This document shows positions 2,429 to 11,371 of a stretch of DNA of 11,371 nt, in pieces. Position 1 is the stretch's first letter, and each line of letters opens with the position of its first letter. The notes beneath the pieces were generated by a model. The model saw only the letters and a program-made list of their open reading frames with translations. It made no database searches and was not told the DNA's origin. Source of the stretch: an uncultured Oscillospiraceae bacterium (GTDB lineage Bacteria > Bacillota > Clostridia > UBA1381); NCBI GenBank assembly GCA_945876665.1, contig CAMCPC010000017.1:1-11371 (forward strand), written 5' to 3'. The translations under genes and the position numbers were made by a program.

Positions 2429-3538
2429 ATGAAATACAGAACACTTGCAGGTGAAAATGTATCCGTTTTAGGCTTTGGATGTATGCGTTTTCCGACCACC
2501 TCAAAAAACGCGGAGGATATAGACATAGAAAAATCAACGGCAATGCTCCGCCATGCGGCAGAAAACGGTGTGAATTATTTTGACACCGCATATGTTTATC
2601 ACGGAGGAAAAAGCGAAAGCTTTATCGGTGAAGCGCTAAAGCCGTATCGTGATAAAATCAATTTTGCCACAAAATGCCCTACATGGGAGGTAAAATGCGA
2701 GGAGGATTTTGACCGCATTCTCACAGAACAGCTCGAAAGACTTCAGACAGACCACATAGATTTTTATCTTATGCACGCGCTGGACAAGGACAGATTTGAA
2801 AACATAGTCCTGAAATTCAATCTTATCGACAAGCTCAACAAGGCAAAGGCAGAGGGAAAAATACGGCACATAGGCTTTTCCTTCCATGACGATGTTGAAG
2901 CGTTCAAGAAAATTATTGACGCAAATCCCGCATGGGAATTCTGTCAGATACAGTTCAATTACATAAACCTTAATTATCAAGCAGGCTTGGAGGGACTTGA
3001 ATACGCCCACAAAAAAGGGCTTGATGTTATCATAATGGAGCCGCTCCTGGGCGGTAAGCTTGCCAATCCTTCAGAGCAGGTTGCCCAAACACTTTCAGAA
3101 GAAAAGACGCCTGTAGAATGGGCAATGGACTTTTTGTGGAACAGAGAAGAAATATCGCTTATACTGAGCGGCATGGGCGCAATGGAGCAGGTGCAGGCGA
3201 ACATCTCATACGCGGACAAGGCAGAGGTGGGAATGCTCACGCAGGAAAACCTTGACATGCTTGCGCATACAAAAGAAGTATTTGACAAAATGGCACTCGT
3301 GCCGTGTACAAAGTGCGCCTACTGTATGCCCTGTCCTTTCGGACTTGATATACCGAAAACCTTTGAGGCATACAACGCCACAGCATCTCGCGGCATGGAC
3401 GCTGCAAGGCAGATATATGCAGCACTCGCAAAGGGCGCTGACAAATGTAAAAAATGCAGAAAATGTGAAAGCGTTTGTCCGCAGAGCATAAAAATCAGCT
3501 CTACCATGACAAAAATCGCCGAAATCTTCAAAAAATAG
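2429..3538 (+). CDS. aldo/keto reductase with C-terminal 2x[4Fe-4S] domain
   Basis: The 369-residue protein has an aldo/keto reductase barrel (about 1-280). It opens with LGFGCMRFP and carries the catalytic tetrad: D52 and Y57 in FDTAYVYHGG, K82 in FATKCP, and H116 in YLMHAL. It therefore probably reduces an aldehyde or ketone using NAD(P)H in the cytoplasm. Behind the barrel come two cysteine motifs. The first is C293-x2-C296-x2-C299-x2-C302-P and the second is C340-x2-C343-x2-C346-x3-C350-P. Together they form a ferredoxin-like pair able to hold two [4Fe-4S] clusters. This fusion is a recognised subfamily in anaerobic Firmicutes; the physiological substrate and electron partner are unknown. 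The gene has its own promoter and ribosome site and appears monocistronic. The hairpin at 3561-3615 probably ends its transcript. Confidence 0.93.
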   Translation: MKYRTLAGENVSVLGFGCMRFPTTSKNAEDIDIEKSTAMLRHAAENGVNYFDTAYVYHGGKSESFIGEALKPYRDKINFATKCPTWEVKCEEDFDRILTEQLERLQTDHIDFYLMHALDKDRFENIVLKFNLIDKLNKAKAEGKIRHIGFSFHDDVEAFKKIIDANPAWEFCQIQFNYINLNYQAGLEGLEYAHKKGLDVIIMEPLLGGKLANPSEQVAQTLSEEKTPVEWAMDFLWNREEISLILSGMGAMEQVQANISYADKAEVGMLTQENLDMLAHTKEVFDKMALVPCTKCAYCMPCPFGLDIPKTFEAYNATASRGMDAARQIYAALAKGADKCKKCRKCESVCPQSIKISSTMTKIAEIFKK

Positions 3539-3552
3539 TCAATAAAGCGGTT

Positions 3553-3581
3553 TTGACATTAACCCTCCTGTATGGTATAAT
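3553..3581 (+). promoter_or_regulatory. perfect-consensus sigma-A promoter of the MBOAT/DHHW operon
   Basis: TTGACA (3553-3558) and TATAAT (3576-3581) have a 17-bp spacer, with TATGG before the -10 box as an extended -10 motif. Transcription should start near A3588, leaving a leader of about 34 bases before the TTG start. The spacer holds the left arm of the inverted repeat at 3561-3574. Confidence 0.92.
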
Positions 3582-3623
3582 GGTTATATCTGACGATTTA
3601 TCATACAGGAGGGTTTTATTTTT
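3561..3623 (+). terminator. hairpin: terminator of the aldo/keto reductase gene that also covers the MBOAT ribosome site
   Basis: AACCCTCCTGTATG (3561-3574) is perfectly complementary to CATACAGGAGGGTT (3602-3615). The stem can be extended inward by a G-U, a U-A and an A-U pair, leaving a loop of about 21 bases. TTTTATTTTT (3614-3623) overlaps and follows the stem, giving an intrinsic terminator 22 bases after the reductase stop codon. The right arm contains AGGAGG (3607-3612), the ribosome site of the next gene. The left arm lies inside the promoter at 3553-3581, so RNA started at that promoter lacks it. Confidence 0.85.
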
Positions 3624-3624
3624 G
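3607..3624 (+). promoter_or_regulatory. ribosome binding site fixing the TTG start of the MBOAT gene
   Basis: AGGAGG at 3607-3612 is followed by a 9-base gap and TTG at 3622-3624. This is the only strong ribosome site in frame. The resulting N-terminus, (M)VFSSLMFMCIFLPVV, matches the usual start of MBOAT proteins. Upstream in-frame ATGs lie within the reductase gene or lack such a site. Confidence 0.85.
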
Positions 3625-5010
3625 GTATTTTCAAGCCTTATGTTTATGTGCATATTCCTGCCTGTGGTACTGATTGCATATAATTTATCAAAAAATCTTA
3701 CATATAAAAACATAATACTCGTTATAGTTTCACTTTTCTTCTACGCGTGGGGCGAACCTGTATGGGTTGTGCTGCTCATATTCAGCGCGCTTGTGGACTA
3801 TGTAAACGGGCGCATAATTGATAAGTTTTACGCGCGTCCGGCAGCAACAGCCGCGCTTATCGCGTCACTTGTGATAAACCTCGGACTGCTCGGAGCTTTC
3901 AAATATTCGGGATTTTTTATAGAAAATATAAATTCGATTCTGCATACAAATATTCCGAACCCGAATTTTTCACTTCCGATAGGAATATCATTCTATACCT
4001 TTCAGACACTTTCATACACAATTGATATGTACCGCGGACGCACAAGAGTACAGAAATCATTTCTTAACTTTCTTGCGTATGTTTCCATGTTTCCGCAGCT
4101 TGTCGCAGGACCGATTGTACGATACAGCGATGTGGCATCTCAGCTTTCGGACAGGCGCGTTACGGCAGAGGATTTTGCCTATGGCATAAAGCGGTTTACC
4201 GCGGGAATGTGCAAAAAGGTTATTCTCGCCAACAGCGCCGGCTCGGTTGCCTCCATGATTCTGGACAGCACGAGGCTTACAGTTGCGTCATCATGGCTTG
4301 GAATTATAATGTACACCTTTCAGATATACTTTGATTTTTCAGGCTACAGCGATATGGCGATAGGCATGGGCAGAATGCTCGGCTTCCGCTTCGGCGAAAA
4401 CTTCCGTTATCCGTATATTTCACGCAGCATAACGGAATTCTGGCGCAGATGGCATATATCGCTGTCAAGCTTTTTCCGCGACTACGTATATATTCCTCTC
4501 GGCGGAAACAGGTACCGTCCTGTTCTTAATTTGTTTATAGTATGGATGCTGACGGGACTATGGCACGGCGCAAGCTGGAACTTTGTACTGTGGGGACTGT
4601 TCTATGGTGTGCTTTTATTTATCGAAAAAACACTGTTCCGGCAGAAATTACAGAAAATTCCTTTCCCTCTCTGCTACATCTACACGATGTTTTTCGTGAT
4701 AATGGGCTGGGGACTGTTCTACTTTACGGACATGAATTCTCTGTGGGTATTCCTGAAAAGCGCATTCGGTGTCGGCAGCGCACTGTATGACCTTACAGCG
4801 GTTTCCACATTCTGCACGAATTTATGGCTGCTGATTGCATGTATAATCGCATCAACTCCCATTCCGTCGATTATATATAATCATCTCTGCAAAAAATCGG
4901 ACACATTCGCCGCAATCACGCAGCCGCTTCTTGTAATAATCGGACTTGGCATATGCTTTATACTGCTTGTGGGACAAACCTATAACCCGTTTTTGTATTT
5001 CAGATTTTAG
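3622..5010 (+). CDS. MBOAT family membrane-bound O-acyltransferase (AlgI/DltB-like)
   Basis: From the TTG start the protein has 462 residues and is strongly hydrophobic, with roughly ten or more membrane segments. It opens with (M)VFSSLMFMCIFLPVV and IILVIVSLFFYAWGEP, typical of the AlgI-type MBOAT group. Hallmark motifs are FWRRWHISLSSFFRDYVYIPLGGNR (H278) and TGLWHGASWNFVLWG (H315, the conserved MBOAT histidine). It should lie in the cytoplasmic membrane and pass acyl groups, most likely acetyl, across it to an extracytoplasmic acceptor. The DHHW protein gene follows after 15 bases, the usual pairing for polysaccharide O-acetylation. No dltA/C/D or alginate genes are near, so D-alanylation is unlikely, and the acceptor polymer cannot be named. 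An open frame extends upstream into the reductase gene, but the ribosome site and family start support 3622. Confidence 0.9.
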   Translation: MVFSSLMFMCIFLPVVLIAYNLSKNLTYKNIILVIVSLFFYAWGEPVWVVLLIFSALVDYVNGRIIDKFYARPAATAALIASLVINLGLLGAFKYSGFFIENINSILHTNIPNPNFSLPIGISFYTFQTLSYTIDMYRGRTRVQKSFLNFLAYVSMFPQLVAGPIVRYSDVASQLSDRRVTAEDFAYGIKRFTAGMCKKVILANSAGSVASMILDSTRLTVASSWLGIIMYTFQIYFDFSGYSDMAIGMGRMLGFRFGENFRYPYISRSITEFWRRWHISLSSFFRDYVYIPLGGNRYRPVLNLFIVWMLTGLWHGASWNFVLWGLFYGVLLFIEKTLFRQKLQKIPFPLCYIYTMFFVIMGWGLFYFTDMNSLWVFLKSAFGVGSALYDLTAVSTFCTNLWLLIACIIASTPIPSIIYNHLCKKSDTFAAITQPLLVIIGLGICFILLVGQTYNPFLYFRF

Positions 5011-5028: not shown

Positions 5029-6210
5029 AAAAATAGAACAGTAATCATAGCCTTTGTGCTTATGATAGCGGCATTTATTGTTGTGCTTGCACTTCCGGCG
5101 GACAAGGAAAGCATCGAGGCAGAAAACAGAGTAATGTCTACCGTTCCCCCGCTTGATTCCGATACGGTTTTTTCGGGACAGTTTGCCTCGGGTTTTGAAA
5201 GCTTTATTGGTGACAGCATAGGATTTCGCTCCTTTTTTACACAGCTTGCAAAACAGCTTGAGGATAAAAAGGGTTTCACGCCCGACACAGGTAAAATCAT
5301 ATCCACCAACAAGGACATAGGCACGGGAACAACACAGAAGCAGACGCTTCTTATGGTGAACAACTCAATAATGGAAATGTTCATGCGCAATCCGCAGCAC
5401 GAACAGCTTTATGCCGACACGATAAACCATTATGCCGAAAGTCTTCCCGAAAGCATCAGTCTTTACAGCATGATTATCCCGACACAACTTGAATTTCAGG
5501 AGCCGATGTATAAAAATTTACAGGACAGCCAGAAAGCCGCTATTGATTCAATATATGAAAAGCTTGACGGCAATGTTACGGCAGTTGACGCGTACGGAGC
5601 GCTTGCGCCGCACCGTGACGAATATATATATTTCCGCACCGACCACCACTGGACGCCATTGGGCGCGTATTATGCCTACCGTGAATTTATGAACGCAAAC
5701 GGCGGAAATGCAGTAAACAAGGACGATTTTGAAGCAAACAGAATACAGAATGTACTGGGATACCTTTATGACAGAGTGGATAATCCGGAAATTGCCGCAA
5801 ATCCCGACACAATAGAATGGTATGACGTTGACCCCGATAACCGTCTTGATATTTCGATGCACGACACTGACGAAAACGGCAATCCTACGTCATATAACGG
5901 AACAATGTATGACAGGGCAAAGGCGAATTATCTGTTCTTCTTCGGAAGCGACCACCCTGTGGTTGAAATGACAAATGATGACATTCCCGACGGCAAAACA
6001 CTCGTTGTGCTTAAGGATTCATACTCAAATGTACTCGCGCCATGGCTTATAAACAGCTATCACAAGGTAGTCATGGTAGACCCGCGTATTTACAGAGGAA
6101 ATTTCCGGAATATAATAGATAACTATTCACCTGATGAGGTGCTTATAGTAAATTACATCTTTACAACGAATTTTCCGGATTACTGCAATATGCTCAAAAA
6201 TATGTATTAG
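5026..6210 (+). CDS. DHHW family protein, AlgJ/AlgX-like partner of the MBOAT
   Basis: From GTG 5026 the protein has 394 residues. It starts KNRTVIIAFVLMIAAFIVVLAL, one N-terminal membrane anchor or uncleaved signal, after which the body should be outside the cell. The family signature RTDHHWTPLGAYYAY places D206-H207-H208-W209. The SGNH-like nucleophile block is LVVLKDSYSN with S332, followed by VVMVDPR. In AlgJ/AlgX relatives the Asp-x-His and this Ser form the catalytic triad that accepts acetyl from the MBOAT partner and transfers it to sugar hydroxyls. Here the acceptor is inferred to be a surface polysaccharide or other envelope polymer. The gene shares the MBOAT promoter and ends at a bidirectional terminator, so the operon is just these two genes. 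Confidence 0.88.
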   Translation: MKNRTVIIAFVLMIAAFIVVLALPADKESIEAENRVMSTVPPLDSDTVFSGQFASGFESFIGDSIGFRSFFTQLAKQLEDKKGFTPDTGKIISTNKDIGTGTTQKQTLLMVNNSIMEMFMRNPQHEQLYADTINHYAESLPESISLYSMIIPTQLEFQEPMYKNLQDSQKAAIDSIYEKLDGNVTAVDAYGALAPHRDEYIYFRTDHHWTPLGAYYAYREFMNANGGNAVNKDDFEANRIQNVLGYLYDRVDNPEIAANPDTIEWYDVDPDNRLDISMHDTDENGNPTSYNGTMYDRAKANYLFFFGSDHPVVEMTNDDIPDGKTLVVLKDSYSNVLAPWLINSYHKVVMVDPRIYRGNFRNIIDNYSPDEVLIVNYIFTTNFPDYCNMLKNMY

Positions 6211-11228: not shown

Positions 11229-11286
11229 AAAATTAAAATTTTTTTTAAAAAAAAGTGTTGACAAATAGTTTGGTGTCTGTTATAAT
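11229..11286 (+). promoter_or_regulatory. strong tRNA promoter with an upstream A/T tract (UP element)
   Basis: TTGACA (11258-11263) and TATAAT (11281-11286) are spaced by 17 bp, a perfect consensus. Directly upstream, 11229-11254 is 26 bp of A and T only, in long A and T runs, as in UP elements of stable-RNA promoters. Confidence 0.9.
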
Positions 11287-11318: not shown

Positions 11319-11371
11319 GGGAGTTTAGCTCAGCTGGGAGAGCGTCTGCCTTACAAGCAGGATGTCACAGG
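11319..11371 (+). tRNA. tRNA-Val (anticodon UAC), 5' part, cut by window edge
   Basis: The first 53 bases fit the cloverleaf: acceptor GGGAGTT (11319-11325), TA, D-arm GCTC...GAGC (11328-11343), anticodon stem TCTGC/GCAGG (11345-11349/11357-11361), loop CTTACAA with anticodon TAC at 11352-11354, variable ATGTC, and the start of the T-arm ACAGG. The UAC anticodon reads valine GUA codons. The 3' part and any further tRNA genes lie beyond the edge. Confidence 0.95.

Follow-up and report, generated by a model that had tools for sequence, protein, structure and literature searches.

In bacteriophage T4, inhibitory helices are formed at the Shine-Dalgarno (SD) sequences of genes e, soc, 49 and I-TevI (PMC3014915, PMC2988022). 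The SD of e and I-TevI is hidden in long early RNAs and not in the RNA started at a late promoter close upstream, and in T4-type phages the late promoter is situated in the region encoding the 5' strand of the helix (PMC3014915, PMC2988022). For sigG of Bacillus subtilis, a hairpin of 20+ bp has been proposed to prevent translation of the spoIIGA-sigE read-through RNA; transcripts started at the sigG promoter are unable to form it (PMC5942855). The present work concerns the region between an aldo/keto reductase gene and a gene for an MBOAT membrane O-acyltransferase in a contig of an uncultured Oscillospiraceae bacterium (CAMCPC010000017.1, 11,371 bases, analysed as the entire contig and hereafter called the window). 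There, the spacer of a consensus promoter is complementary to the ribosome-binding site of the MBOAT gene. In our reading, to which we give a probability of roughly 0.78, this spacer carries an anti-SD arm, such that read-through RNA would be locked and RNA from the internal promoter would be translated.

In the fold-back inhibition of the insertion sequences (IS) IS10 and IS50, an arm near the element end would pair with the SD of the transposase gene only if transcription came from an outside promoter. IS in the bacterial family studied here carry the same layout, CCTCC...TATAAT...GGAGG; these are mobile elements, whereas the lock of the window sits on a host operon. A further report treats a transposase mRNA whose long leader itself conceals the SD, which is not a read-through lock (PMC8450116). 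Locks of this kind are already known; the present one is set apart by its vegetative consensus promoter, by a spacer that holds the whole 14-bp left arm and by an occurrence that apparently depends on gene order. As in T4 e and I-TevI, RNA from an upstream promoter would hide the SD and RNA from the near promoter would be without the 5' strand, a form that is well translated in T4. On the other hand, the phage late promoters make the T4 lock a timer, whereas the MBOAT gene has a housekeeping-type consensus promoter on a bacterial chromosome, and the T4 lock has been shown experimentally whereas that of MBOAT is predicted. With sigG the locus shares a proposed read-through hairpin that is precluded when transcription begins at the gene's own promoter; a sporulation-sigma promoter and a developmental switch are involved there, an envelope-type acyltransferase and TTGACA/TATAAT boxes here. 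An intrinsic terminator overlapping an SD would likewise consist of a hairpin and a T-tract, both present in the window, but the T-tract is not conserved. No prior account of the MBOAT lock was found in the literature searched, which covered few subscription journals.

The promoter spacer and the predicted read-through hairpin

The reductase gene, the MBOAT gene and the DHHW/AlgX-like gene that follows are all on the + strand. The reductase stop codon is at 3536-3538, and the 83 bases that separate it from the MBOAT gene hold the promoter boxes and a perfect inverted repeat. The features are as follows, seven genomes of the genus that share the arrangement being referred to as lock genomes.

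2429..3538, + strand: aldo/keto reductase with C-terminal 4Fe-4S domain (PF00248, E 1.6e-39; PF13183/PF13187)
3553..3558, + strand: -35 box TTGACA of the internal promoter (sequence, promoter scan; kept in seven lock genomes)
3559-3575, + strand: promoter spacer, 17 bp (sequence)
3561..3574, + strand: left (anti-SD) arm AACCCTCCTGTATG, entirely inside the promoter spacer (sequence, repeat search, covariation)
3576..3581, + strand: -10 box TATAAT, with TG at 3573-3574 (sequence, promoter scan; kept in seven lock genomes as TATAAT or TACAAT)
3588, + strand: predicted transcription start, about 7 nt past the -10 box (placed from the -10 position only)
3602..3615, + strand: right arm CATACAGGAGGGTT (sequence, repeat search, covariation)
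3607..3612, + strand: SD AGGAGG within the right arm (sequence; GGAGG in 7 of 7 lock genomes)
3614..3623, + strand: T-rich stretch TTTTATTTTT at and after the stem end (sequence; possible terminator tail here, not conserved)
3622..5010, + strand: MBOAT membrane O-acyltransferase, TTG start, 462 aa (PF03062, E 1.9e-29)

The positions that an earlier note, made from the letters alone, had assigned to the boxes, arms, SD, T-tract and TTG start all match the sequence base for base. The internal promoter has 12 of 12 consensus matches and is one of four such sites within the window. The two arms are complementary over 14 bp without mismatch, and the pairing can be extended to 17 nt at 94% (3561-3577 with 3599-3615). 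At the level of sequence, the promoter boxes, the arms, the position of the SD within the right arm and the compensatory pairing in seven genomes are established.

The reductase gene is a possible source of read-through RNA, which would contain both arms and would form a hairpin hiding the MBOAT ribosome-binding site. RNA begun at 3588 would be without the left arm and would be translated, so that the lock would insulate the MBOAT and DHHW output from reductase transcription, both the read-through and the insulation being proposed here. The fold, the start near 3588 and the occlusion of the SD in read-through RNA are predicted. In folding calculations, the GGAGG core has an unpaired probability of 0-0.009 in the read-through RNA and a higher one in the internal RNA for 7 of 7 genomes. 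When the internal RNA includes 3 nt of coding sequence, the predicted values are 0.44-0.73 in the seven genomes (window, 0.46), and with 40 nt they are 0.11 in G011 and 0.44-0.59 in the other five relatives.

Several tests bear on whether such a repeat could arise by chance. The window contains one perfect 14-bp inverted repeat with a gap of at most 60, and any such repeat was present in 2 of 300 dinucleotide shuffles. For the RNA 3539-3640 the predicted folding energy is -34.7 kcal/mol (z -6.06), a value reached by 0 of 200 shuffles. The 12-mer ACCCTCCTGTAT has exact copies only in the two arms of the element, within its own genome as assembled (81.6% complete). In a scan of the G014 genome (1,498,135 bases), for which gene starts were called simply and loops had to be at least 12 nt long, so that shorter hairpins are missed, the MBOAT start had the strongest upstream/SD duplex among 1044 SD-bearing starts, at -28.7 kcal/mol, the next being at -23.7. 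At three of the 1044 starts the arms flank a -10-like box and form a duplex of -18 kcal/mol or lower, with 0.0 expected from three mononucleotide shuffles per gene; when the -10 condition was dropped, the excess of strong duplexes was small (11 vs 7.0). Judged from these sequence data, the inverted repeat is not due to chance, its pairing being kept with compensatory changes and being the strongest such duplex in the G014 scan, and the commonness of such locks in host genes genome-wide appears to be low.

Conservation of the pairing and possible alternative roles of the hairpin

The genus was represented by 16 genomes including that of the window; an MBOAT match was obtained in 16 of 16, and the start of the gene was readable in 15, the contig of G004 beginning within the gene. 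All 15 readable copies keep the TTG start followed by V-F-S-S. When the relatives were checked for the overlap and for covarying arms, 7 of the 15 (window, G002, G005, G006, G011, G014 and G008) were found to have TTGACA-17-TATAAT/TACAAT and, in the spacer, complementarity to the SD region, the pairing being kept with compensatory changes. Double changes among the seven affect spacer positions 3 (A-U, G-C or U-A), 4 (A-U or C-G), 12 (G-C or U-A) and 14 (A-U or G-C). In an alignment of 17 pairs and seven sequences (119 cells), 93.3% of the cells are paired, as compared with a shuffled mean of 79.3 (standard deviation 2.7; 0 of 500), the alignment having been cut and joined in the register of the window helix, which somewhat favours the register tested. 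Cells changed on both sides number 17 vs 6.7 in shuffles (0 of 500) and the covariation score is 0.504 vs 0.236 (0 of 500), so that three of the five covariation measures of selection on pairing lie beyond 500 shuffles and two do not, with the proviso that relatedness can carry sequences beyond all shuffles. When the register is slid by 1-3 columns, 50.4-63.0% of the cells are paired.

The duplexes formed by each spacer with its own SD region reach -20.3 to -26.3 kcal/mol, as compared with shuffled means of -7.0 to -9.7, and 0-2 of 2000 shuffles were as low; across the seven genomes the helices comprise 17 positions with 0-3 mismatches. Cross-pairing between genomes is often weaker, the left arm of G014 with the right arm of G005 giving -8.6 (own, -26.3), but not always, the window left arm with the G006 right arm still giving -22.5 (own, -25.8).

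The hairpin could instead serve chiefly to end the reductase transcript by intrinsic termination, its overlap with the following SD being a matter of economy and the MBOAT gene being then insulated transcriptionally; we regard this as possible though rather unlikely. The window hairpin does fold with few unpaired bases and is followed by TTATTTTT, with 7 T in 8, and in G001, which has no lock, several hairpins can be made out by eye within the 389-nt gap. In the other six lock genomes, however, the T-tract is weak while the pairing of the SD is kept: the stem is followed by TTATTTTTGG in the window, and by TTTGG, TTTGG, TTTTTGG, TTTTGG, ATTGG and ATTGG in the relatives, which have 4-6 T in the 8 nt past the stem, in short T runs, against 7 in the window. 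Moreover, the hairpin is not in the list of the terminator program, for which the loop limit is 8. The earlier note had counted termination among the functions of the element; as a conserved feature this is not supported, the T-tract not being kept in the six relatives. In the window itself termination is possible, and the hairpin with its T-tract may end part of the read-through RNA there.

The same note had offered a protein operator as an alternative. In such a case, a dimeric regulator would bind the inverted repeat in DNA and repress the promoter that it overlaps. The perfect DNA symmetry in the window and the location of the left arm between the -35 and -10 boxes agree with such a role, which is nevertheless improbable in view of the spacing, the -10 box and the SD core being separated not by a fixed length but by 26, 21, 21, 60, 24, 25 and 26 nt in the seven genomes, and of the presence of the SD in the other arm in 7 of 7. 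There are also 20 non-Watson-Crick cells, of which 12 are G-U (11 of these left-U/right-G), a pair tolerated by an RNA helix and not by a DNA palindrome; the argument is weak because C-to-T drift opposite an SD-constrained G yields the same pattern. What speaks against the operator is thus that the arms lie at varying distances from each other and, weakly, that G-U pairs occur. Since the T-tract is not kept and this distance varies, the data agree better with a ribosome-site lock than with a terminator or an operator.

Long RNA helices are plausible substrates of the double-strand-specific RNase III, and those of the seven genomes are long enough to be considered in this respect. A role of the read-through duplex as a processing or decay site rather than as a translation lock has, in our estimate, little probability, for it would not need the SD as one arm in every lock genome; such processing would be compatible with the lock and would not replace it.

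Gene order and the distribution of the proposed lock

The ribosome-site lock put forward in the earlier note is supported by the covariation and by its distribution, as among the 15 genus genomes it occurs only beside the reductase gene with an internal promoter. Indeed, in 7 of 7 genus genomes that have a same-strand reductase 72-111 nt upstream together with the internal promoter the lock is present, and in all seven the left arm is 5' of the -10 box, the promoter being recognised by consensus only. In G007 and G003, which have no lock, 29 and 26 nt, respectively, separate the reductase stop from the start of MBOAT, which leaves no room for a promoter. The lock is absent from G001 as well, where the promoter and the SD remain. 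It is also absent from G009, G010, G012, G013 and G015, in which an asparagine-synthase-like (asnB) gene, so named from its sequence, lies 135-151 nt upstream and the promoter is followed by a leader of 77-84 nt with its own GC-rich hairpin. In an MBOAT tree, three lock genomes (window, G002 and G005) are grouped with the non-lock genomes G007, G001 and G003 (support 81/96, drawn open), and the remaining four lock genomes form a separate clade (99/99). As lock and non-lock genomes are mixed in this way, the lock was likely lost within the genus, or gained repeatedly. No such lock was seen at the second MBOAT copy present in eight genomes.

A number of results weigh against the lock as read here. 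It is represented by just seven sequences in two tree groups, with G002/G005 and G008/G014 being near-duplicates, and two covariation measures are not extreme, namely pairs with a change on both sides (6 vs 4.4; 76 of 500) and further pair types (15 vs 12.4; 35 of 500). Some left arms pair about equally well with the right arm of another genome: G005 left with window right (-25.4; own, -25.0) and G011 left with G006 right (-25.5; own, -22.7). In the five asnB genomes the promoter is present but the duplexes reach only -7.9 to -11.6 kcal/mol, with 81-301 of 2000 shuffles as low, so a same-strand neighbour together with a promoter is not always accompanied by a lock. In folds of 14 MBOAT upstream regions from other genera of the family, no lock was seen by eye. 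There, by a simple longest-ORF (open reading frame) call, the next upstream ORF is on the opposite strand in seven regions (L054, L056, L060, L061, L062, L064 and L065) and on the same strand at 21-34 nt in three (L057, L058 and L063) and at 795 nt in L055, L067 and L068 being cut off; L066 has a same-strand ORF 83 nt upstream and is without a lock. Finally, GGAGG in the internal RNA of the window has a mean unpaired probability of 0.46 when 3 nt of coding sequence are included, but of 0.07 with 40 nt, the lowest among the seven genomes at that length, and of 0.14 with 80 nt, because the SD can pair with codons ~12-16.

This last result modifies the statement of the earlier note that internal RNA would be freely translated: such RNA lacks the left arm and its SD is predicted to be freer, but in the window the SD is predicted to re-pair with early codons, so that for the window itself free translation of the short RNA is only moderately predicted. 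Loss of complementarity in relatives that keep the promoter and the SD, which the note had named as a sign against its proposal, is seen in G001 and in the five asnB genomes, 6 of 15 in all. These six all have a changed upstream neighbourhood, while the pairing is kept in 7 of 7 genomes that have both the neighbourhood of the window and an internal promoter.

A more general proposal, which we make tentatively and hold to be somewhat doubtful, is that the spacer of an ordinary vegetative promoter may serve as a reusable, gene-order-dependent insulator. An anti-SD would evolve there under a co-oriented upstream gene and be lost when the gene joins a plain operon or gains a terminator; the device would act at several host loci of the genus (MBOAT, a ymxH-like gene in 7 of 15 genomes with a putative promoter, and the asnB-like gene of G004), and at least three kinds of IS would use it independently. 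If this were true, a gene could be isolated from the transcription of its neighbour without a terminator, by a lock written in spacer bases that RNA polymerase largely ignores, and a device known from phage timing and sporulation would serve plain insulation. A testable rule would then tie gene order to 5' sequence, and operon predictions based on co-orientation or co-transcription could mislead at the protein level.

Similar layouts and neighbouring features

In two of the regions from other genera (L062 and L065, another genus), TTGACAAAT of the MBOAT promoter is repeated in inverted orientation farther downstream, by eye, with the SD untouched.

The pattern TTGACA-N1-8-CCTCC-N4-11-TATAAT has 11 occurrences in 8 of the 16 genus genomes, three of which are the MBOAT lock; at the remaining eight, no comparable SD hairpin was seen by eye, L079 having a short CCTCC/GGAGG pair only. 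Over 70 genomes of the family, CCTCC-N3-9-TATAAT-N12-42-GGAGG was found 77 times vs 12 for the reversed pattern, a rough control, since every copy of a repeated element enters the count and genomes are rich in SDs anyway. Among 30 loci fetched (L198-L227), several have transposase genes downstream of the layout: L220 is IS200-like (PF01797), with L198 below the cut-off, L200 is a unit with an rve integrase ORF (second ORF, Pfam), L226 is of the Mutator type (Pfam), and L204, L218 and L225 have transposase genes with the anti-SD, TATAAT and SD layout by eye only. This layout is therefore carried by several IS types, some in multiple copies (five in G023). An IS or miniature inverted-repeat transposable element (MITE) origin of the window's element was considered and rejected, comparison with 14 IS or IS-like loci having given no kin and matches of 9-15 nt only (best E 0.038). 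As no kinship was found, the resemblance between the window lock and the IS layouts looks convergent.

Some host genes show related arrangements. In G004 (L233 ~495-548, G004:C21), an asnB-like gene after the apparent DHHW end has its own lock, TCTCCTCCG ... TATAAT ... CGGAGGGGA; it is a single case, as no lock was seen by eye in the asnB-like copies of the five asnB genomes (L228-L232). A PRC-barrel gene (PF05239 in the L237/G006 copy), which we take to be ymxH/ylmC-like, has its SD in a hairpin of 11-20 bp, the arms of which have changed yet still match each other (-20.0 to -30.6 kcal/mol), at 7 of 15 loci (L237, L240, L241, L244, L246, L247 and L250), where a same-strand ORF that looks flippase-like by eye ends 46-88 nt upstream. 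The hairpin is absent from L238, L239 (the window's genome), L242, L243, L245 and L251 and looks decayed in L248, and L249 is ambiguous, with a similar neighbour and an SD paired within a longer predicted hairpin. In L241 and L244 a GAATAT(T/C) box is found ~15 nt 5' of TATACAA, which to our mind resembles a sporulation sigma-E promoter.

Around TATAAT there are 15-16 paired positions at a SpoIIE gene (L093, L130, L157 and L160; Lacrimispora xylanisolvens, a Hungatella metagenome-assembled genome and other records), identified by PF07228 and PF19732 in L093 and by a near-identical N-terminus in the others; TTGACA is 21 nt from TATAAT at these loci, so the promoter is uncertain. In L122, L126, L143 and L162 (Terrisporobacter and other records) the SD of a presumably SpoIVA-like gene lies in a hairpin in which both strands read TATAAT. 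In L290 (G014), a 125-codon ORF with the look of a membrane protein, starting at 14379 on the reverse strand, has AACCTCC / GGGAGGTT arms around TTTATAAT (-18.6 kcal/mol).

Two further features of the window adjoin the reductase and MBOAT genes.

2365-2393, + strand: promoter-like TTGAAA-17-TATACT, 5' of the reductase gene (promoter scan, 10 of 12 matches)
5029..6210, + strand: DHHW/AlgX-like gene, putative start codon (PF14286, E 4e-47; PF16822, E 1.7e-8)

The DHHW/AlgX-like gene is the probable partner of MBOAT, the protein of which scores below the cut-off of the DltB model (151.7 vs 375 bits). A riboswitch or other known RNA was considered and rejected, as the Rfam search of the window gave no family above the gathering score except a tRNA at 11319-11371. 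Three further promoters with 12 of 12 consensus matches are located at 8912-8884 (-), 2324-2296 (-) and 11258-11286 (+), the last of which precedes the tRNA gene truncated at the window end.
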